Below the pieces are notes generated by a model, which was not told the DNA's origin, ran no database searches, and worked only from the letters and a program-made list of their open reading frames with translations. Below, piece after piece: positions 2,996 to 36,105 of a stretch of 61,166 bases of DNA (positions within the stretch are counted from its first letter, which is position 1; each line of letters starts with the position of its first letter). The stretch comes from a bacterium (GTDB lineage Bacteria > Planctomycetota > Planctomycetia > Pirellulales > Pirellulaceae), in assembly GCA_024743355.1 (NCBI GenBank), contig JANSWS010000003.1, positions 1 through 61,166 on the forward strand, given 5' to 3'. The translations under genes were made by a program, and so were the position numbers.

Positions 2996-4039
2996 TCAGG
3001 CGGCTACGATTTCGGTCAGCAGCCAAATCCAGGGCAAATAAATCAGCAAGACGTAAACAAACAGAGTGATGAGACCCACGATCACGGCCGTCAACATGGG
3101 AATCCAGCGGGTCTTGCGGGCTGAGAGAGTATCGGCGGAATCTCGCATGTGGTCCGCTAATTGGCTCAAGTTGTCTACCGCTTCTTGCTTTTGCATGATG
3201 CCCGCATGTACGGCGGAAAGCAGCATCGAAGATTCGCGGTTCAGGGGATGCGCTGGTTGTTGAGACTGGATATTGGAAAAGGCCTCGTCAACATTCTCGC
3301 GATCTCCACCGGCCACCGCGGTGGTGAGTGGGGCGATCTGATTCAGGGCGACCTGCGAATTCAACATCGAAGCGGCCATTTCCGAAGCCAATGCTTGCAG
3401 TCGCAAACGCTGGGAAGATTCCGCAGGCCAGTTGCGTTTTCGCTTGCCTCGATACCGCCAATAGAAATAGGTTCCCGATAGTAGGCCAGCCAGCAGGAGT
3501 CCCAACAAAATCGGCGCAAGTTGCTCGCGGATCCACACGATCGCATGCAGCCAAGCCGGCAGACTCTTGTCGAACAAGGCATAGGTCTCGCGGTATTCGG
3601 GAATCAAAGCCCATATGACATAGGTCAGCGAAATAGCCGTTACCACCACCAACAAAAATGGATAGACCAACGCAGATCGCAGACGCCGTTGGGCCAGACG
3701 ATTTGCAAAATGCATATTGGTCCAGCAATGCAGAGCATGGTCCAAGCGATCGGATAGCTCACCCGAGACGATACATGCGGAAAGTACTCGAGACTCGCGC
3801 GATTCATCGCTGGCTAGAGCCGCTGCCAGACTCTTACCCTGAGCAAGCTGAGTCTCGACGGATTGCGCGAGTGCGGATATCCGCGATGGGGCTGACTGGG
3901 TGCGTGATCCCAATTCGCCGCTGATCGGCAATCGAGCTTCCACCAGCTGAGCAACCTGCTGGCATACGGCGAGACGCTCCTCAAGACCGTAGCTGGAAGG
4001 TTGCGTCGGTTTCGGTTTGGCTTCGGATTGCGTCATCAT
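2996..4039 (-). CDS. Type II secretion / type IV pilus inner-membrane platform protein (GspF/PilC family)
   Basis: About 347 residues. Members of this family form the polytopic platform that couples the GspE/PilB ATPase to pseudopilus assembly in the inner membrane. The protein has the usual F-domain layout: a soluble helical part (to about residue 120), a first membrane pair (about 121-143 and 172-193), a second soluble part and a C-terminal membrane helix near 318-340. A TTG codon precedes the ATG, but ATG 4039 or 4036 is the more likely start. It lies 9 bases after the stop of the GspE-like gene, so the two are almost certainly co-transcribed. It is the third GspF homologue in the window, after the tandem pair on the plus strand at 7422-9733. 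Length is slightly short of the usual 400 residues. Confidence 0.88.
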   Translation of the reverse strand: MMTQSEAKPKPTQPSSYGLEERLAVCQQVAQLVEARLPISGELGSRTQSAPSRISALAQSVETQLAQGKSLAAALASDESRESRVLSACIVSGELSDRLDHALHCWTNMHFANRLAQRRLRSALVYPFLLVVVTAISLTYVIWALIPEYRETYALFDKSLPAWLHAIVWIREQLAPILLGLLLAGLLSGTYFYWRYRGKRKRNWPAESSQRLRLQALASEMAASMLNSQVALNQIAPLTTAVAGGDRENVDEAFSNIQSQQPAHPLNRESSMLLSAVHAGIMQKQEAVDNLSQLADHMRDSADTLSARKTRWIPMLTAVIVGLITLFVYVLLIYLPWIWLLTEIVAA

Positions 4040-4048
4040 CAATTTCGA

Positions 4049-5236
4049 CTAGAGCGCGTTGGCGGCGTCTTCAGCGGACACGCGTCCCTGATCCACGGCT
4101 TGCTTGGTCTGAGTCGCCAGAGTTGTCATGTTGAGCGAAACGGCGGCGGCCTGCAAGCTGCTGGAATCGGAACCTTCGGCAAGGCACTTGGCCAGTTCTC
4201 CATCCATGGCAGGAAGTACTTCGGCCAACAGGCATCTGCCAGACCGACCACTGCCGCCGCAGGCAGGGCAGGGTAGTTGCGCGGGCGTCGTGTGCCGGCA
4301 GTCGCACAGCTCCGGTAACAGTCGCTGACAGACCAGGCAGGTCAGGCCACTTCGCAGATGTTGGTAAGGTACTCCCATGTCGAGCAGTCTTTGCAGGGCG
4401 TCCACCACGGAGCGAGCATGTAGGGTGGAGATGACGAGCTGACCGGTCATGGCGGCTTGGAAAGTTACAGCCGCTGTTTGCGAATCGCGAATCTCGCCTA
4501 CGAAAATGACTTCCGGGTCCTGACGCAAGATGGCTTTCAGGCCCGAGCTCCAATCGTATTCCGAATCGGGCTGAATCTGTGACTGTGCGGCTCCGGATAT
4601 TTCGCATTCGATGGGATCTTCCAGCGTCACGACGCTTCGCAGTTCGGTTTGGCTCAACAACTGACGCAGCGCCGCATAGGCCGTAGTCGTCTTACCCGAG
4701 CCGGCCGTCCCCGAAATCAAGATGACTCCGGAGGGCCTGCCTAAAGCGTCGGTAAGTCTGCGATAAACGTCGCCGGGAAGACCCAGGTCCGCGGGCAGCC
4801 AAGGTTCCGCCTGCGCGGCCGCGAAACGCAGAACCAGACGTTCACCGTGCAAGGTCGGCAGCGTGCTCACGCGAACCTCCATGCGACCATTGCGCGAACT
4901 TTCAGCAGAGTTGCCATCCAAAGCAAAGACCAAACGTCCCTCTTGCGGAATATCGTGGCGGTAGGTGATCAATCGGGCCAGTGCCTTGATCCGTCCACTA
5001 ATACTCGTAGTGGAACCCGCGGGAATGTCCGGCAAACGCATCAATTTGCCATGCACACGGAATAACACAGTGTGCACCTGGTTGCCTTCGGTCAGATGCA
5101 CATCGCTGGCTTGCGCCGCCACCGCCGCCTTCAAGATGCGATCGACGACTTGTGCTGCATAAAGGTCACTGGCGGTATCCAGATCGTCAAAGCTGAGAAT
5201 GATGACATCTCCCACCACGCAAAAACTCTTGCTCAT
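4049..5236 (-). CDS. GspE/PilB-family secretion ATPase, short form without the N-terminal domain
   Basis: The 395-residue protein carries the whole motor core. Walker A is GTAGSGKTT at 176-184, a LEDPIE segment is at 205-210, Walker B is VIFVGEIR at 243-250, and the histidine box TGQLVISTLHA is at 264-274. A cysteine module (C300, C303, C311, C313, C323, C326) corresponds to the tetracysteine zinc motif of GspE. The family hexamer hydrolyses ATP at the cytoplasmic face to drive pseudopilus or pilus assembly. Usual GspE/PilB proteins have 500-570 residues. Here the N1/N2 region that docks on GspL or PilM-type partners is nearly absent, since the conserved core (SDVHL, 44-48) begins almost at once. 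It sits directly upstream of a GspF gene in an apparent two-gene operon. Confidence 0.92.
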   Translation of the reverse strand: MSKSFCVVGDVIILSFDDLDTASDLYAAQVVDRILKAAVAAQASDVHLTEGNQVHTVLFRVHGKLMRLPDIPAGSTTSISGRIKALARLITYRHDIPQEGRLVFALDGNSAESSRNGRMEVRVSTLPTLHGERLVLRFAAAQAEPWLPADLGLPGDVYRRLTDALGRPSGVILISGTAGSGKTTTAYAALRQLLSQTELRSVVTLEDPIECEISGAAQSQIQPDSEYDWSSGLKAILRQDPEVIFVGEIRDSQTAAVTFQAAMTGQLVISTLHARSVVDALQRLLDMGVPYQHLRSGLTCLVCQRLLPELCDCRHTTPAQLPCPACGGSGRSGRCLLAEVLPAMDGELAKCLAEGSDSSSLQAAAVSLNMTTLATQTKQAVDQGRVSAEDAANAL

Positions 5237-5312
5237 TCGTAGTCATAATCGCGTAACCTAAACTTAGGGCGGTTGCCTCAATACCTTTGATCCCATCCGA
5301 ATCGGAGGTCTA

Positions 5313-5792
5313 TTATTCCAGAGCCTGCATCCGCTTGCGATATTCTCGCTCATCTATGCGTTGCTCCAGGAACTGATGGCTCAGTACATATTTCTGGATG
5401 CGAGCCAGGTCCTTATTCTGTCGGTCGGGGCGGTACAGTACGCGACTCAGAGCGGAATTGTCGCGGAGATCCGCCAGCTTGACCTTTCGCGCCAAGGCAT
5501 CGTGACTGAGCGCCACAACATAGTCCGCATACGACTGATTGGGCTGATGGGTGACCAGTTCAATGGCCTTCAGCACGGCTGGCGCGAATCCCATCGACCG
5601 TAAGTCCTCCAAGGTTACATCGGTGTCTTCCACCAAGTCGTGCATCAAGGCAACCAGACGTGCCTGTGGATCATCCACCGCCATCATCACACGCAGGCAA
5701 TGCAGGATGTAAGGCTCGCCGTCTTCGTCCGTGACGCCGTGGAATTTGCTGATGGTCAGCAGGAGTGCATCATCCAGGGATGCTTCGGACAT
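5313..5792 (-). CDS. Small HD-domain phosphohydrolase (SpoT hydrolase / Mesh1-like)
   Basis: The 159-residue protein is essentially one HD domain. H18 and the segment GEPYILHCLRVM resemble the start of the SpoT hydrolase domain. H51-D52 followed by LVEDTDVTLEDL is the metal-binding HD motif, and KLADLRDN near 105-112 supplies the last metal-ligand aspartate. No synthetase, TGS or ACT domain is present. Small single-domain proteins of this type are often annotated as GTP-pyrophosphokinase-like or MESH1-type hydrolases. The activity on (p)ppGpp or another nucleotide is an inference from these motifs. It is on the same strand as the lactonase upstream and the GspE gene downstream (76-base gap), with no overlap. 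Confidence 0.82.
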   Translation of the reverse strand: MSEASLDDALLLTISKFHGVTDEDGEPYILHCLRVMMAVDDPQARLVALMHDLVEDTDVTLEDLRSMGFAPAVLKAIELVTHQPNQSYADYVVALSHDALARKVKLADLRDNSALSRVLYRPDRQNKDLARIQKYVLSHQFLEQRIDEREYRKRMQALE

Positions 5793-5904
5793 AGCTTGGT
5801 TTCGGCTTCTTGAAAAATCAGAAATGCGATGCGGAGATCGGCAGAAACAACCTGGACTTCGCAGTGCGGCCCCGTCAAACAGAGCTGCCGTACGGCTTTG
5901 GCAC

Positions 5905-6005
5905 GTTCGATCAACAAGTGTCGCCTGTCGCTCCGCGAAAGTAGCGCCTTTTTCCGCATCTTTCGCGGGAGCGAAAGGCGACTATCGGAAATTAATGGAT
6001 CGAAC
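5905..6005. repeat. About 100-bp palindromic MITE-like element, copy 1
   Basis: The element is bounded by perfect 8-bp inverted ends GTTCGATC and GATCGAAC. Inside lies a second dyad built from CGCTCCGCGAAAG and CTTTCGCGGGAGCG. The reverse complement aligns along its whole length with the element at 41791-41889. It fills most of the gap between the HD hydrolase and the lactonase gene. It has no coding capacity. Dispersal is shown directly by the two copies. A mobile (MITE) origin is inferred. Confidence 0.75.
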
Positions 6006-6021
6006 GTTGCTTAACGCGAGA

Positions 6022-7170
6022 TTAACGCGTTAGGAATTTAATACAGCATGGCGAGCCCACGCTCGCCGTGTTGCCGGTGTGCGTCAACTCCCCCGTTCGT
6101 GGATCGATGCGGAAGACGACAATCGAATCGGATTGCTGGTTCTCCGCCAGCAAAAACTTTCCGCTGGGGTCGATGCGGAAATTGCGTGGAGTTTTTCCGC
6201 TGGTAGGAGTGTGTCCGATGGAGCTCAGCTTGTTATCCATAAAACGGAAGCCCGCGATCGAATCATGACCACGATTCGAACCGAAAACGAACTTGCCACT
6301 CGGGTGGACCAAAACTTCGGCGGTGGAGTATCCGGATTGCATATCCACCGGCAAGGTGGAAATCTGTTGGAGCTCTTCGAGTCGCCCCGCTTCCGCATCC
6401 CAGCTGCAAAGGCTGAGCATACAGGTCAGCTCATGAATGACGAACGCGTGTTTACCATCGGGATGAAATGCCAGGTGGCGAGGCCCATGTCCGGGAGTGG
6501 CCTTGAAGGGCTTGCCGGTTGCTTGTAGCTGACCGCTTTCCCGATTCAGCTCATAAATCACCACCTGGTCGGTACCTAGATCGACTGCGCAAACGAAGCG
6601 GTCTGTCGGGTCGGCGAGAATGCAATGAGCGTGGGGCGATTGCTGACGACGCTCGTTGATACTGCTACCTTGATGTTGATGTTGGCTGGTAAGTGGTCCC
6701 AGCCCGCCGTCAGGCTTCAAGCGGAACGCGGCAATGCTGCCACTGCCGTAGTTGGCGACAAACAGAAACTCGCCGGCATGATCGGTGGAGACATAGCACG
6801 GGCCGCTACCAGCTGATGCCGCCGCTCCGATCTCCTCGAGAGTGAGGTCGTCTCGGATACGATAAGCGACCACCTGACGGTCACTTTCAGCCACTTCGCT
6901 AACCGCGTACAGCACGTTCCCGCTGGGATGGATCGTCAGAAAGGATGGGTTGGTCAGCTCAGCCACCAGACTTGGTTCCGCCAGTGATCCGTCATCCAGC
7001 GACAGTTCACTGCGGTAGATGCCTTGACTTGCGCCACCCGTGTAGGTGCCGATAAAGAAAGGAAGCTTGTTGTTCGCAGTGGCCTCCTCCGCGGGAGCGG
7101 AAGCGGGCGGCCAAAAACACAGACAAAAAATCGCAAGCAGGGTAATTGTCAGTTTCATAGTCTGCATCAC
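6022..7170 (-). CDS. Secreted lactonase-family beta-propeller protein (6-phosphogluconolactonase YbhE-like fold)
   Basis: 382 residues with an N-terminal signal peptide (hydrophobic stretch to about residue 25, then PAEEATANNK). The body is built from repeated propeller blades, with signatures such as FFIGTYTGG near the start, HAHCILADP, GHGPRHLAFHPDGK in the centre, and GKTPRNFRIDPSGKFLLAENQ near the end. These match the seven-bladed lactonase family (PF10282). Cytoplasmic members hydrolyse 6-phosphogluconolactone. Exported planctomycete members are numerous and their substrate is unknown, so no pathway is assigned. No partner gene is adjacent. Confidence 0.87.
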   Translation of the reverse strand: MMQTMKLTITLLAIFCLCFWPPASAPAEEATANNKLPFFIGTYTGGASQGIYRSELSLDDGSLAEPSLVAELTNPSFLTIHPSGNVLYAVSEVAESDRQVVAYRIRDDLTLEEIGAAASAGSGPCYVSTDHAGEFLFVANYGSGSIAAFRLKPDGGLGPLTSQHQHQGSSINERRQQSPHAHCILADPTDRFVCAVDLGTDQVVIYELNRESGQLQATGKPFKATPGHGPRHLAFHPDGKHAFVIHELTCMLSLCSWDAEAGRLEELQQISTLPVDMQSGYSTAEVLVHPSGKFVFGSNRGHDSIAGFRFMDNKLSSIGHTPTSGKTPRNFRIDPSGKFLLAENQQSDSIVVFRIDPRTGELTHTGNTASVGSPCCIKFLTR

Positions 7171-7421
7171 GTAGAGGTTTGTGGGTGCATGGGGTGGATC
7201 GTTGCAGAATCAGCGGCCAGCAACGGATTGCCTTCTAGGTGAGTATTGTAAGAGCTTCTGGCCCGGATGTGTTTTGTTGGCATTCAATTCCAGATTGCCG
7301 CCTGCCGAAGCTGCCGGACTCTGACACGTGGGTAAGGCGAGTTGCTACAATCGTCGGCCAGTAAGCCGCGCGATGTTCTATCCGGTGTAGCGGTCTTCAG
7401 TTGGACAAGAGTCAGGGCACC

Positions 7422-8438
7422 ATGGCGCAACAAGCTGAAATTTTGGATACCGCCGTGGGCCGCCATGTTTTGGACTCCTTGAAGCTGCGTTTGGCGGCCG
7501 AAATCGGACCTCTGCGATGGCGACGACCGCTGCAGAATTTGGCCGCTTTGCTCGGTCAAGGTATTCCATTAGACGATGCTTTGCGGCAGCAAAGCGGAGC
7601 TCTGCCGGCTGAATTGAACAGCTTGCTGCGTGAATCCTTGAAGGTACGTGATCCGGCTGGGCTGTTGATCGAGGCTATTCGCGTGCGGACCAAGTCCGAC
7701 AAGGGATGGCGGATTTTGGTTTCGACCTCGGTCTACCCAATGGTTTTGTTCGTGGCAGCCCTTGCCGTTGGGCTGGCATTCAGCTTTTCGATCCGCAGCA
7801 TGGTTACACTCGACTGGTTTGATGAGTTTGGATTGATGGGTTTCGAAAACTTACGGGCCTCCATCGATGATCAACACCACGCCATCTTGGGTATGGCGAT
7901 GATTACCGCATGGGTCTTGATGGTTCTCCTAAGTCTGTGGTTCGTCGGTCCGCCTTGGGCTTGGTTGGCGGTCATGGGTGGCATGATTCTGGTAGGTAAG
8001 CCTTTGCGTTGGATGTCGCTACAGGAAATGCTGAACCGCTATCACTTGTTCTTGGTGCATGGGCTCCAACCAGCGGCGGCGGTGGATGCTGCCGCACGCA
8101 GTTTTCACAGCAGCCGGCAGAGTGTGTTCAGCCAGTCGATCGCCCGCGATGTTCAGTTGGGAATGCCGCTGGGGCGGGCCATCGGAGCTTGTTCTCTAAC
8201 GGATGGGTTGTGTCGGCCCATCGTGCTGCTGATTGACCAGCGGTCCGAAGATCTTGATCTGGCTCTGTCGGATGCGGCTAACGTACTGGGACAGATGGCC
8301 GAGCAACGCTGTCGGTCGCTGGCCACCGTGGTGCCGGTCTTTGCCTTGGCGCTGGTGGGAACCATCCTGTTTGGCGCCATCGCTTCCTATCTTATGTCGT
8401 TGATGCCCTTGGTAACAATGATTAGCTCCCTGGCTTGA
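7422..8438 (+). CDS. GspF-family platform protein, first of a tandem pair
   Basis: About 338 residues from ATG 7422; an in-frame TTG at 7401 would add seven residues. It has a soluble N-terminal F domain with the typical stretch LAALLGQGIPLDDAL, a membrane segment near residues 103-125, a second membrane region around 155-190, another soluble F domain with LFLVHGLQP and GMPLGRAI, and a C-terminal membrane helix. It opens a plus-strand operon of secretion-like genes and is followed directly by a second GspF homologue. GspF proteins normally occur once per system, so the tandem arrangement suggests specialised or heteromeric platform subunits. Sequence conservation to canonical GspF is weak. 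Confidence 0.78.
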   Translation: MAQQAEILDTAVGRHVLDSLKLRLAAEIGPLRWRRPLQNLAALLGQGIPLDDALRQQSGALPAELNSLLRESLKVRDPAGLLIEAIRVRTKSDKGWRILVSTSVYPMVLFVAALAVGLAFSFSIRSMVTLDWFDEFGLMGFENLRASIDDQHHAILGMAMITAWVLMVLLSLWFVGPPWAWLAVMGGMILVGKPLRWMSLQEMLNRYHLFLVHGLQPAAAVDAAARSFHSSRQSVFSQSIARDVQLGMPLGRAIGACSLTDGLCRPIVLLIDQRSEDLDLALSDAANVLGQMAEQRCRSLATVVPVFALALVGTILFGAIASYLMSLMPLVTMISSLA

Positions 8439-8443
8439 ACACA

Positions 8444-9733
8444 ATGGTTCTGTTTTCATCTAATTGGCTCATACTGTTTCCAATCGCCTTCAGCCTGTTT
8501 GTGGCCCTGCGACTTTCGTTGGGCACAGTCAGAGCCGAGGGCCGCTCTTGGATGCTGTTGGCCGTCCGCAGCTTGATCTTGTTGATGTTCTGGTTTTCGT
8601 TGCTGGCTGTCGGCGGACGGGCACATTGGATCAGTATTGCCTGGCTGATCATCTTGGCCATGTTCTCGGTAGTCATTTTCTGGAAGCGGCGACGCATGGA
8701 ACGCAAGGCAATGCTTCTGAGCTGCCTGAGCGCGACCGACCTGCCGCAGCAGCAGGCGCTGTCCGGGTATTTTGTGCAGGAAAATGTAGGCTGGCCGCGT
8801 CGCAAGGCCGGGGCTCTGCAACGAGACATCGCGCAAGGTGTCCCGTGGGAGCTAGCTCTAGAGATGCGAGGCATAGCCGTGGGAGTCTACGAGAGGTTGG
8901 CGATACGCTTGCGATATGCATTCGGTATTGCCTGCCCGAACGAGTTGGAGTCTTCGACATCGCACTCGCCGCTGTCCATCGAAGCGGAGTTTGAGCGCTT
9001 GCTCGGTCGGCTGCTGATCTTTGCCTGGGTGGTGGTAATCATTCCCATCTTGTACTTGATTGCCGTGTTTATCATGCCGACGTTCCAGTCCATGTTTGAA
9101 GAAATGGGAGTCGAATTACCCCGGATGTCGCAATTGGTGTTGGGAATCGGAGATTGGACATCTTCGACCAGGATTTCACAATTCTTCGCGCTGCTACCGA
9201 TGCTGTTGTTAATCCTGTGCGCAGTGAGCTTTTTGCTGTGGCTGTTTCCAAGCTTGCTGCAGTTGCCGATGTTTCGCTATATCTCCGGTGATTACTACAC
9301 TAACGCCGGACTTTTCGCACTGGCTCAAATTTCAGAAAGTGAGCCCGACCTGATCGCCGCCTGTCGAAGAACCAGTGAAATCGTACCAGTTGCCTACATC
9401 GCCCGCAGGTTTCAGTTGGCCGCCGATTACCTCGAACAAGGCTTGCCATTGGCCACCGCCTTGCAGAAGTCGGGAATATTAAAGCGGCACGAAATTCGAC
9501 GCATCCGGGGACACACGATCTTTACGGGAGATTTGCAGCGGTCCAATGAACGGAACGTGGTGTGGGCTCTTCAGCAACTTGCGGCCTCGCGCATCGAACA
9601 GATGCTGAACCGATACTCCATGCTGACACAAGGTGCAGTGGTGGGGCTAACACTCATGCTGGCTCTGCTGATTGGGTTTGTGGTAGTCGGTATGATAATG
9701 GCGTTGACGCATCTCATTAGTTCCCTCGCCTGA
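8444..9733 (+). CDS. GspF-family platform protein, second of a tandem pair
   Basis: About 429 residues from ATG 8444. A TTG at 8435 overlapping the previous stop is an alternative start. The first 80 residues hold two or three extra hydrophobic helices not found in standard GspF. The F domain follows, with the conserved block around VYERLAIRLRYAFGI, a strong membrane pair (LLIFAWVVVIIPILYLIAVFIMPTFQSMFEEMGVELP region and IPMLLL region), a second F domain with LEQGLPLATAL, and a C-terminal membrane helix. FQSMFEEMGVELP resembles the conserved periplasmic loop of PilC/GspF. It is translationally close to both neighbours. The role is inferred as inner-membrane platform of a type II secretion-like system. 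Confidence 0.82.
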   Translation: MVLFSSNWLILFPIAFSLFVALRLSLGTVRAEGRSWMLLAVRSLILLMFWFSLLAVGGRAHWISIAWLIILAMFSVVIFWKRRRMERKAMLLSCLSATDLPQQQALSGYFVQENVGWPRRKAGALQRDIAQGVPWELALEMRGIAVGVYERLAIRLRYAFGIACPNELESSTSHSPLSIEAEFERLLGRLLIFAWVVVIIPILYLIAVFIMPTFQSMFEEMGVELPRMSQLVLGIGDWTSSTRISQFFALLPMLLLILCAVSFLLWLFPSLLQLPMFRYISGDYYTNAGLFALAQISESEPDLIAACRRTSEIVPVAYIARRFQLAADYLEQGLPLATALQKSGILKRHEIRRIRGHTIFTGDLQRSNERNVVWALQQLAASRIEQMLNRYSMLTQGAVVGLTLMLALLIGFVVVGMIMALTHLISSLA

Positions 9734-9751
9734 GATGTATGGGGTTCGCCA

Positions 9752-10324
9752 ATGCTAGGGCTAGACAATAAGGCACTCTTCTCGCTGGTCGCCGTTACCA
9801 GTTATTCTCCCTCGGGAGAGTCGGACGTATCAGCGGCCGGTGAGGGGCTTTCGCTCCCTGTAGTGAGAGCCTGGAAGCCTCGCAGCCGAAGACGTTCACC
9901 GCGATTGGCGGCCAGCGTGGCGGAGACCGTGGTGGCGACCGCACTTTTGGCGATTGCCATGAGCGGCGTTGGACGTTTCGCTTATCACCTTAAAGAAGGG
10001 CTCAGGAATCGCGAGATCGGTTCGCGGATAGAACTGGAGATGCTTAACCTGCGCGAGGAAGTTGGTAGCTGGGAGATTGCCGACATCAATCCGCAGCGCG
10101 TCGAGGAATTCCCAATTTCAACTGGTCTGCAGGCAATTGTGGAAGAGCCGCATTGGGAGGCCCAGGTGGTGAGGGTTTCCAAGCCTGCGGAGGCGGTGCA
10201 AGTTACGCTTCGTCTGAAGTGTCGGATCCAAGGGCAAGCGGCCTCTCCGGCGGAGCGAACTTTCTGGATTGTTGGCCGGACGCGTTCGGAGCCGCAGATC
10301 GAAAGCGGAGATGCCGATGACTGA
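9752..10324 (+). CDS. Minor pseudopilin-like protein (GspI position)
   Basis: 190 residues. A basic leader of unusual length (about 52 residues, ending SRRRSPRLA) precedes a pilin-like helix ASVAETVVATALLAIAMS. The glutamate of VAE stands at +5 if processing occurs between the two alanines, as in type IV prepilins. The usual glycine at -1 would then be alanine. The rest is a soluble domain rich in beta strands. Its position after two GspF genes and before GspJ- and GspK-like genes suggests a minor pseudopilin of the GspI kind. Sequence similarity alone would not prove this. A shorter start further inside the frame is possible. Confidence 0.6.
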   Translation: MLGLDNKALFSLVAVTSYSPSGESDVSAAGEGLSLPVVRAWKPRSRRRSPRLAASVAETVVATALLAIAMSGVGRFAYHLKEGLRNREIGSRIELEMLNLREEVGSWEIADINPQRVEEFPISTGLQAIVEEPHWEAQVVRVSKPAEAVQVTLRLKCRIQGQAASPAERTFWIVGRTRSEPQIESGDADD

Positions 10325-10853
10325 GCCAATCGCCGTTCCATCCAGGGTCCGCATCAAGGGCACACATAGATCAGGCTTCAGTCTGATCGATGCGGTAACC
10401 ATGATTATCGCTGTGGGAGTCTTGTTGTCGCTGGCAACGATCACCATGCACCGCTCGTTTCAATCTCACCGTCTTGCTCTGGAGGGCGTTCGGCTTTCAC
10501 AAAGCCTGCATCTGGTAGGTGACCGATTTCGGGAGGATGTCAGCCAGGCTTCCAGTTGCACACCCGGCGAGTCGCTCTGGCTGGATTTTTCAGACGGACG
10601 CCGCGTAAGCTACGGTGTCCAAGACGATCGACTCACCCGCAGCACATGGCTGGATGACGAGCAGGTCGGCGAAGACAGTTGGAAGTTACCCGTGGCCTGT
10701 CAGGCGAATTTTGTGGTGAATGACGAGAACGCAATCCCCTGGGTCGCTATGCAACTCAAGTCACACATGCCAAACAAGTTTGCCTCACTCGAGTGGAAGG
10801 CCCGCCTTTTGGATGGATCCCTTTCAGCAGCATCGGTGGAGGCGCGACCATGA
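10317..10853 (+). CDS. Minor pseudopilin-like protein (GspJ position) with Asp at +5
   Basis: 178 residues. ATG 10317 overlaps the previous stop by 8 bases and has GGAG six bases upstream, so it is preferred to ATG 10311. The leader ends SG and is followed by FSLIDAVTMIIAVGVLLSLA, a typical N-methylation helix, except that the invariant glutamate at +5 is aspartate. The remaining domain (VGDRFREDV..., WLDFSDGRRVSYGV...) has the look of GspJ-type minor pseudopilins, in which such text is common. It overlaps the next gene by an ATGA junction. Function in a pseudopilus tip is inferred from context. Confidence 0.68.
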   Translation: MTEPIAVPSRVRIKGTHRSGFSLIDAVTMIIAVGVLLSLATITMHRSFQSHRLALEGVRLSQSLHLVGDRFREDVSQASSCTPGESLWLDFSDGRRVSYGVQDDRLTRSTWLDDEQVGEDSWKLPVACQANFVVNDENAIPWVAMQLKSHMPNKFASLEWKARLLDGSLSAASVEARP

Positions 10854-11290
10854 AACTCGGAGGCATTCCATTAACGTGTCTGGCGGGAATTCGGAACGAC
10901 AAGCAACTGCGTCGCGAAAGTCGACGGAAGGGGCAGCGTAGAGCGGCCGTGCTGATTTGTGTTCTGGTTGTCTTGTTGATAGCCGGAGCCTTATCAATTC
11001 AGGCTACGCAGAGCCTGGCCATCATTCGCCGCGGTGAAGAGCGAAGATCACGATTGTATCAGGCTCGTGAATTGCTGGAGCTGGGTAAGGCCGCGGTGGA
11101 ACAGCAGCAGATCCAAAAAGAAGTAACATGGACGATCGAGTTAGACTCGGGTAGGGGAAAGATCCAAGTTATTCCCTACCCGCGGCCGGAAGCAACGGAT
11201 TATCGTATCCTGGCAACATTCCCGGCGGACAGCGATCACGCATTGCAGGTAACTTGGGATTCATCAGGACCACTTGGGAGACAACGATGA
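10850..11290 (+). CDS. Short GspK-like membrane-anchored protein
   Basis: 146 residues from ATG 10850, which overlaps the preceding stop (ATGA) and has GGAGG about seven bases upstream. A basic leader ([11 protein letters not shown]) is followed by [18 protein letters not shown], an N-terminal helix without the +5 glutamate. Lack of that glutamate is characteristic of GspK, the pseudopilus tip protein. GspK is usually over 300 residues, so only the helix and a short domain with REELLELGK-like helical text are present here. The call rests on gene order and the helix. It could also be an unrelated planctomycete pilus-operon protein. Confidence 0.55.
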
Positions 11291-12390
11291 ACTGGGTACT
11301 TAGGCGTCATAGGATTGCGGTTCGCAAAACCGCGGGATTCACGCTGGTGGAGTTGCTGGTGGTGATTGCCATCATCGGCATTCTGGTTGGCTTGCTGTTG
11401 CCGGCTATCCAAGCCGCCCGCGAAGCTGCGCGACGTGCCCAGTGCATGAATCAGATACTGCAGTTGGGTGTCGCATTGCATAATTATGAAATGGCCCACC
11501 GCGTTTTGCCTCCCGGCACGGTGGATCAACAGGGCCCCATCCAAAACCTGCCCATCGGCTTTCATCACAGCTGGATCGTCCAGATTCTACCGATGATGGA
11601 CGAGCGAGTCGCTTATATGATGCTCGACCACTCGCAGTCGATTTACAGCAAGGCAAACTTTCCCGTGCGAGCGCACCAGATTCCATGGCTCATCTGTCCA
11701 TCGACCCCCATGGGTCGCGAGGGACCCTATTCCAATTATGCCGGAGTGCACGACAGTCGCGAGGTTCCCATCGATGTGGACAACAACGGCGTTTTGTTTC
11801 TCAATAGCCATGTTCGATTGGACGATATCATCGACGGTGTGACGCATACCATTTTCGTCGCGGAGAAATTGACCGATGCAACCGATCTAGGCTGGAGCAG
11901 CGGTACCCGCTCGACGCTAAGAAATCTGGGACATGCGATCAATAGTATGGGAATGCCCACCGGAGTTTCTTTGCCGCCCGGATTTGCGGGCGGCTTTACC
12001 CGGGCCGGCGATGGCGATTTAGCCAGCGCAGGTTATGGCGGCGAAGGCTACGGCGTTGAGGCTACTGTCGAGGATTTATCCGTGGAACCCGATGAATGGG
12101 AAACGGTGCGCCAGAAGGAAAGCCAGTTTGCCGGCAGCAGTCGTTTCAAAATGCTGGATATTGATCCCAAGTCCTGGTTGAAAATCTCGGAGCTGCCCGA
12201 GGTGATTCCAGGCAAAGCCAATGATGGGCGACACGTCGGGGGATTTGGCAGCATGCACACCGGTGGGATGAACGTGTTGTTGGGTGATGGATCGGTGCAT
12301 TTCATGTCTCAAAATGCGGATCGCACCGTGATGCAGCAATTGGGCAATCGAGCCGACAAGACTCTGATGGATTTTGATCCCTTCTGGTGA
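11287..12390 (+). CDS. DUF1559 domain protein with prepilin N-terminus (major pseudopilin-like)
   Basis: 367 residues from ATG 11287, in an ATGA overlap with the previous gene and with GGGAG six bases upstream. The N-terminus [35 protein letters not shown] is a textbook type IV prepilin signal with G at -1, F at +1 and E at +5. A DUF1559 domain follows. It begins with the [16 protein letters not shown] block and ends with the [17 protein letters not shown] motif. Such proteins exist in very large numbers in planctomycetes and are thought to form pseudopili or surface fibres. Here it closes a pseudopilin operon and may act as the structural subunit in place of GspG. Confidence 0.92.
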
Positions 12391-34806: not shown

Positions 34807-36105
34807 TTACCCCGCAGTAGAGCCGTTCAGGCTTTCCTGGGCCTCGTCGTCTTCCCAGTCCTCATCGCTATCGCTGTCTGGGTCAGGCTCGCTCGGTTGT
34901 GATTCAGACTCTGCGGCGGGTGCAACTGCCACAAAAAAAACCGTCCCGATCGCAAGCAGCAGCAGTCCCAGCAGCTGTCGCACGACCACCGGGATACTGT
35001 CGGGCAGAAGTTCCAGGCCGTAGATGGGCTTCCACATAGCCCGAAAGAGCAGCAGTCCCAGCCAGACCCAGACCGTCAGATCGGACACACGCGCAAAACG
35101 ACTGACGAGCTTTGGACGGACGAAAATCCCGATCAACCAGCAGCATAAGGAGGCAGCCATGAGGAGGACGAAGGTCATCGACACGACTGACTGCCATCCG
35201 ACCAGGCATCCGGCTACAGCCATGGAGCCGCAGAATTGCCGGGCTCCCGCGGTGGCGGGATCCGAACTCATCAGTGAGCGATCGAAATGTCGGTAGAGCA
35301 AGGGAGCGAGCACGCGCGCAACGGCCATGCCGGCCACCGCACCACATAGCAGGCTGGTGAGCGCATCGAGCCGTGCCTCCACAAAACCGTCGGCAGCAGC
35401 CTCTCTCCAGCGAACCACGATGACCTGTGGATCTACCATGGCAGCCACGGACACTGGTACGAGACACCACAAGAAAAGTGTCAGAGGAACTGCACGACGA
35501 CGAACGGCGATCAGAGCGGCCGCGATCAGGCCGCTCAGTGCAAACAAATAAACGGTCAACCTCAGGCCCAAAAGCCACGGATCAGCGATGCGAGCCAAGC
35601 CGCTGACGCCGATCGAATTCCCGCGAACTCCCGGCAAATTGCCGCCAGTGCTCAAGAACTCGGACAAATAAACAATGAAGAAGACGATGGCCACTCCCAA
35701 CTCAACCAATGGATATTGGACCGAAATCGGCAAACGGCAAACACGGCAGCGACCGCGCAGTCGGACCCAGGCCAGTACCGGAATATTATCGCGGGCTCGA
35801 ATCGAACTGCCGCAATAGGGGCAGCCGGAATGTCCGCCGATTTTGCGCCCTAGCGGCAAGCGATAAGCGACTACATTCAAAAAGCTGCCGATCGAGGCGC
35901 CGACGGCGACAAACCAGGTGGCAATCGTGGCGTCCAAGAGGCTGGATACGAAGGCCAAACCCCAATCGCTGCCCGTGGAACGTTTGGCAAAGGTCATCCC
36001 GCCAATCAAGGTTTGGACGCCGACATATACTAGCATCGCTGAGATGATCGCCAGCCATAGACCGCGGTAGGGCCAATTGGGGTGTTTCTTACGTCGCGAG
36101 CGCAT
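34807..36105 (-). CDS. Prepilin peptidase (A24/PilD)-like membrane protein, apparently without catalytic aspartates
   Basis: 432 residues from ATG 36105; the frame continues to 36387 without support. After one membrane helix comes SIGSFLNVVAYRLPLGRKIGGHSGCPYC, the N-terminal domain of PilD. The spacing C95-x2-C98-x21-C120-x2-C123 is exactly the zinc-binding pattern of that domain, thought to serve the N-methylation activity. In the peptidase half, by eye alignment, the family LIDLE...IPD site reads LIAVRRRAVPL (about 198-208). The GxGD stretch before the GWQ motif reads GARQFCGSMAVAGCLVGWQ, so both aspartates seem to be lost. D225 is the only nearby aspartate. Several further membrane helices follow and the tail is acidic (DSDEDWEDDE). 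Active processing of pseudopilins by this protein is therefore doubtful. Confidence 0.82.
   Translation of the reverse strand: MRSRRKKHPNWPYRGLWLAIISAMLVYVGVQTLIGGMTFAKRSTGSDWGLAFVSSLLDATIATWFVAVGASIGSFLNVVAYRLPLGRKIGGHSGCPYCGSSIRARDNIPVLAWVRLRGRCRVCRLPISVQYPLVELGVAIVFFIVYLSEFLSTGGNLPGVRGNSIGVSGLARIADPWLLGLRLTVYLFALSGLIAAALIAVRRRAVPLTLFLWCLVPVSVAAMVDPQVIVVRWREAAADGFVEARLDALTSLLCGAVAGMAVARVLAPLLYRHFDRSLMSSDPATAGARQFCGSMAVAGCLVGWQSVVSMTFVLLMAASLCCWLIGIFVRPKLVSRFARVSDLTVWVWLGLLLFRAMWKPIYGLELLPDSIPVVVRQLLGLLLLAIGTVFFVAVAPAAESESQPSEPDPDSDSDEDWEDDEAQESLNGSTAG

Follow-up and report, generated by a model that had tools for sequence, protein, structure and literature searches.

How a genome processes its prepilins when one of its PilD homologues has retained the zinc motif and lost both catalytic aspartates is the question raised by a gene on the reverse strand of the window (the whole stretch of DNA analyzed, 61,166 nucleotides). 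The answer favored here, with a probability of roughly 0.6, is that one bifunctional PilD gave rise, through complementary degeneration of its copies, to a protease-only enzyme and to a zinc protein that probably carries out N-methylation, the split being read from sequence comparisons and the methylation deduced. The features of the gene are as follows.

34807-36105, minus strand: zinc-only PilD homologue, 432 amino acids plus stop, consisting of an A24_N_bact domain and a degenerate peptidase half
35665-35904, minus strand: A24_N_bact (methylase/zinc) domain, residues 68-147, PF06750 match
35737-35823, minus strand: zinc motif C95-x2-C98-x21-C120-x2-C123, with G118-R119 before the third Cys
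35485-35514, minus strand: first catalytic site, degenerate, LIAVRRRAVP in place of the canonical LIDxDxxxxP, with A200 instead of Asp and P207 retained
35191-35247, minus strand: GxGD site, degenerate, GARQF...GWQ, with F291 instead of the second Asp and GWQ retained

The Window Protein Possesses an Intact Zinc Domain

The gene comprises 432 codons without interruption from an ATG at position 36105, and the start KKHPNWPY of the deduced protein is common to its orthologues, which show 44-57% identity within the genus and are present across the order. Among Pfam families, only PF06750 (A24_N_bact; IPR010627) matched the protein (E 2.7e-27, 95.1 bits versus a cut-off of 23), PF01478 (Peptidase_A24) being absent even at E ≤ 10, and a search of NCBIfam returned no match. 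The exact C-x2-C-x21-C-x2-C pattern noticed in the sequence-only reading was confirmed and is located within the PF06750 match. Its spacing corresponds to that of P. aeruginosa PilD, in which removal of zinc abolishes N-methylation and leaves cleavage intact (PMC3584216). Moreover, the third cysteine is preceded by glycine and a basic residue (G118-R119-C120), and such residues at this position contribute to methylation according to Pepe and Lory (1998), as cited in PMC3584216.

The AlphaFold2 model of the protein (pLDDT 89.1, pTM 0.88) represents a helical membrane protein, the zinc loop of which is flanked by one long helix on each side. Foldseek matched no prepilin-peptidase structure to this model, nor to the model of a bona fide control protease; since the control was equally without a match to solved relatives such as FlaK, the fold search had no power here. 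Likewise, Foldseek/VIA-align against the PDB provided no useful match for the window protein and none for the control, and a PDB sequence search yielded chance zinc-finger matches only.

Both Catalytic Aspartates Are Replaced

In order to locate the catalytic columns, the window family was compared by profile-profile alignment (hhalign) with the active-looking protease family of the same genomes, which carries both aspartates. A collinear full-length alignment was obtained (Prob 99.2, E 1.7e-19), in which LIAVRRRAVP of the window protein is placed opposite FIDFDEQSIP and GARQFCGSMAVAGCLVGWQ opposite LGFGDVTLMAMIGTYIGWQ of the protease. Based on these columns, the first catalytic Asp corresponds to A200 and the Asp of GxGD to F291 (ARQF opposite GFGD). 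The earlier alignment by eye, which had paired LIAVRRRAVP and the GARQF preceding GWQ with the two catalytic sites, was therefore correct, and the loss of both aspartates claimed from it is borne out. D225, named at that time as the residue that could overturn the claim, was rejected as a catalytic Asp: it resides in the loop M-V-D225-P226, opposite a non-Asp before a conserved Pro and off the active-site positions. The first Asp, the Asp of GxGD and the PF01478 domain, which characterize an active A24 type IV prepilin peptidase, are all missing from the window protein.

A Zinc-Less Protease Is Encoded in the Same Genome

Screening of the window's own genome for PF01478 revealed two peptidases. 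One, on contig C494, is a CpaA/TadV-type peptidase of 223 amino acids. The other, on contig C804, is a Peptidase_A24 protein of 419 amino acids featuring FIDFDEQSIPD (D138) and GFGDVTL; its match to the A24_N domain is residual (15 bits), and the four zinc cysteines are all missing. The sequence-only reading had predicted a separate leader peptidase and proposed a genome-wide search for a second PilD, and both proteins, in particular the C804 homologue with its two aspartates, answer to that prediction. The window gene and the C804 gene are located on different contigs (C367 vs. C804). A second zinc-only paralogue of this genome, on C800 (L011:1535-3142), runs off the contig end, so that its membrane half is only partly seen.

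Zinc-Only and Zinc-Less Proteins Co-Occur across the Order

The analysis was extended to 60 genomes, namely 15 of the genus (including the window's own), 22 further members of the family and 23 further members of the order, with nine intact PilDs serving as the yardstick for residue counts. Zinc-only proteins, 68 in total, were found in 59 of the 60 genomes. All four cysteines are present in every one of them (68/68), glycine two positions before the third Cys in 66 and the basic residue directly before it in 67. At the first catalytic position (D1), Asp occurs in six of the 68; two proteins possess an Asp near the GxGD position, accompanied by His or Glu at D1, and the two aspartates occur together in none. 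Given the invariance of the four cysteines and the lack of any relative with both aspartates, chance is excluded as the cause of this pattern. The catalytic site is still recognizable in the zinc-only proteins, as 48/68 still have the non-catalytic Asp at D1+2 and 57/68 the Pro. Furthermore, GWQ, P207 and P226 are conserved, and much of the membrane half is retained in most members.

The partner set (n = 53) shows the reverse: D1 and GxGD are present in 53/53 each, the zinc cysteines are lost (one stray Cys in one column) and the Gly-basic pair is replaced by Arg-Glu in most proteins. It is exactly the methylation-linked residues that the window family retains and its partner lacks, and the reverse applies to those required for cleavage. 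The reciprocal pair was found in 55 of the 60 genomes. Four genomes harbor a zinc-only gene for which no partner was found (G003, G019, G030 and G046), all of them drafts of 80-94% completeness. The only genome devoid of a zinc-only gene, G041, encodes one intact PilD with the zinc site and both aspartates. Tandem copies of the zinc-less protease gene, identical in 1371/1371 bases and 2.5 kb apart, were observed in G035 (L169:1360-5207); they may represent a recent duplication or an assembly artefact.

In some genomes, the whole peptidase half of the zinc-only protein is gone. Short forms of 130-170 amino acids are encoded in G042, G059 and G038, and the zinc-only protein of G057, comprising 215 amino acids, likewise has no peptidase half. 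Since G042 and G059 are single-contig genomes, short forms occur in closed genomes; beyond the stop of the short gene, G042 and G057 carry an unrelated reading frame. According to the review PMC10191384, the methylase domain consists of the first two helices of PilD and the loop between them, and it is just this part that the short forms keep. Thalassoglobus neptunius (Planctomycetales) has a zinc-only gene (L046) alongside a frame of 461 codons that encodes a peptidase domain.

Distribution and History in Other Orders

Outside the class, nearly all readable A24_N proteins are intact PilDs. Within the class, other orders feature three arrangements. Some genomes encode an intact PilD only (e.g., G081, G136, G182 and most of families f72 and f73), others an intact PilD together with a zinc-only gene (G162, G166, G178, G197, G159, G161, G181, G163 and G187), and a third group a zinc-less protease together with a zinc-only gene (read in G121, G174 and G186, and assigned from the same pattern in G102 and G189). 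In family f74 (G150, G154, G157), the partner retains the cysteines within a degenerate surrounding domain. A zinc-less PilD-type protease without a zinc-only gene was not seen among these genomes, those of G152, G170 and G193 having an unclassifiable protease. An intact PilD thus frequently accompanies the zinc-only copy, which is therefore no mere substitute for it, and this coexistence shows that a zinc-only gene can be of value beside the full enzyme.

In the peptidase tree, the zinc-less proteases of the order form one clade (100/99), with the intact PilD of G041 as its sister (98/93). The zinc-less proteases of family f21, genus g48, are nested among intact f21 PilDs (100/99) and occur in genomes that also carry a zinc-only gene. 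This nesting indicates that zinc was lost from the protease at least twice; a single common loss for all zinc-less proteases was rejected by the AU test (p-AU 2.2e-4). In the zinc tree, the main zinc-only clade (100/100) includes most zinc-only genes of other orders, whose branching within it is an unresolved bush; their presence there may be due to transfer or to deep paralogy, since the tree fits either. A few zinc-only proteins of f72 (L259, L282), f73 and f76 (L298, L302) group with intact f72/f73 PilDs, suggesting further, putative independent origins of methylase-only forms in these families. In f21 genus g48, a third PilD-like protein was noticed in G121 and G174 (L213, L306), which possesses the four cysteines, both aspartates and GxGDVT and features an altered loop, NRC or NRCP instead of GRC. 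It is possibly a methylation-dead form that still has its cysteines.

Proposed Function and Alternative Explanations

At the level of sequence, homology of the two proteins, reciprocal loss of motifs, co-occurrence and repeated independent zinc loss are established. The following course of events is proposed. A duplication of PilD would have taken place in an ancestral member of the class Planctomycetia, after which each copy would have lost the half that the other kept: one, ancestral to the window gene, would have retained the zinc (methylase) domain without the two catalytic aspartates, the other, ancestral to the C804 gene, the aspartates without the zinc cysteines. At the cytoplasmic face of the membrane, the C804 protein is predicted to cut the leader peptide off (pseudo)pilins and DUF1559 proteins. 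The window protein would then receive the new N-terminal residue, usually Phe, and N-methylate it with SAM, which is presumed to be bound at the zinc loop. The dead peptidase half, kept in most members, may serve to hold the pilin helix. That a stand-alone pilin N-methyltransferase exists here, with protease-only and methylase-only enzymes across an order and zinc lost from the protease at least twice independently, is assigned chances slightly above even.

Several other explanations were weighed against this proposal. The zinc protein may be a pseudoprotease without enzymatic activity, its dead groove binding prepilins in order to regulate or chaperone them or to deliver them to the C804-type protease, and its zinc loop being structural. 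Such a role is played by iRhoms for rhomboid clients. It would fit a catalytic site that is dead within a membrane half largely kept in most members (GWQ, P207, P226) as well as the presence of an intact PilD beside it in other orders. However, the residues conserved are the methylation-linked ones, the whole groove is gone in the short forms, and it would stay unexplained why only genomes with a zinc-only gene have a partner that lost its zinc site; this explanation is regarded as unlikely. The sequence-only reading had considered a methyltransferase-only or regulatory paralogue. The former is best supported, since the methylation residues are retained, the partner shows the converse loss and standalone methylase-domain forms exist; a regulatory role is possible. 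Even less probable is an obligate heteromer that rebuilds one PilD, each protein being inactive without the other and the C804 protease receiving its zinc domain in trans from the window protein. The two proteins have degenerated reciprocally, most genomes retain what is left of both halves, and a single intact PilD suffices for G041, all of which would agree with a heteromer. Against it, PilD of P. aeruginosa cleaves without zinc (PMC3584216), Tad peptidases function without a methylase domain, and the two genes reside on different contigs.

Recruitment of the zinc domain to a purpose unrelated to pilins, such as another methylated substrate or redox or metal sensing, is distinctly improbable. 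The window gene is located beside MacB/HlyD and photolyase-like genes, an arrangement showing synteny within the genus, and the synteny check revealed no pilus genes in its neighborhood; moreover, some genomes contain several zinc paralogues. PilD genes are, however, often unlinked to pilins, and the complementarity with a prepilin protease would be left without explanation. The loss of catalytic residues and the second zinc paralogue on C800 might finally suggest a decaying pseudogene of a redundant PilD. Given the open frame, the cysteines retained in 68/68 proteins over an order and orthologues of 44-57% identity, this possibility is next to negligible and was rejected.

The proposed division of PilD into protease and methylase can be compared with known systems. 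The window protein has the zinc domain, the Gly-basic pair and the collinear membrane half in common with PilD/PulO/XcpA (MEROPS A24A; PF06750+PF01478); in contrast to these enzymes, it is devoid of both aspartates, and the peptidase function is encoded by a second, zinc-less gene. PilD is described as bimodular in the review PMC10191384, which names methylase-less peptidases (TadV). In the TadV/CpaA Flp prepilin peptidases, one of which is encoded on C494, peptidase and methylase parts are likewise separable; these enzymes lack the methylase domain, whereas the window protein represents the opposite half. Within the same superfamily, one ancestral component also gave rise to two genes in the TadB/TadC platform proteins, a case of gene fission reviewed in PMC10191384. 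TadB and TadC are, however, two halves of a platform, while here two activities of one enzyme would have been separated via complementary decay of full-length copies. A split or methylase-only PilD was not found described in the literature searched, subscription papers being outside its scope, and the available text of the review PMC10191384 names no methylase-only protein.

One difficulty in the study of pilin methylation is the location of both activities in one enzyme, the loss of which blocks processing. Separate genes for methylation and cleavage would permit a clean methylase deletion and hence offer a natural way to study methylation alone. If zinc was indeed lost at least twice, each time in genomes with a methylase-only gene, pilin methylation would be under selection there. 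Every genome read retains a zinc domain in some protein, which suggests that lineages with dozens of pilin-like DUF1559 proteins benefit from maintaining methylation. Furthermore, a standalone domain of approximately 130 amino acids would represent a simpler target for structural and mechanistic work than full PilD.

Candidate Substrates

The prepilin N-methylation motif (N_methyl) was identified in 55 proteins encoded by the window's own genome, one of them the DUF1559 protein listed below. A T2SS/type IV filament-like cluster spans positions 2999-12390 of the window and contains the following features.

2999-4042, minus strand: T2SSF
4052-5236, minus strand: T2SSE-type assembly ATPase (PF00437, 6e-82)
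7401-8435, plus strand: second T2SSF, weak
9752-10853, plus strand: candidate pseudopilins
10269-10853, plus strand: possible minor pseudopilin, GFSLIDAVTMI, with Asp instead of Glu at +5
11254-12390, plus strand: DUF1559 protein, candidate substrate (PF07596, 2e-51; PF07963, 2.9e-7), with a prepilin methylation motif

The possible minor pseudopilin is proposed from its motif, as Pfam gave no match for the product of 10269-10853. The DUF1559 gene lies next to the T2SS-like genes.
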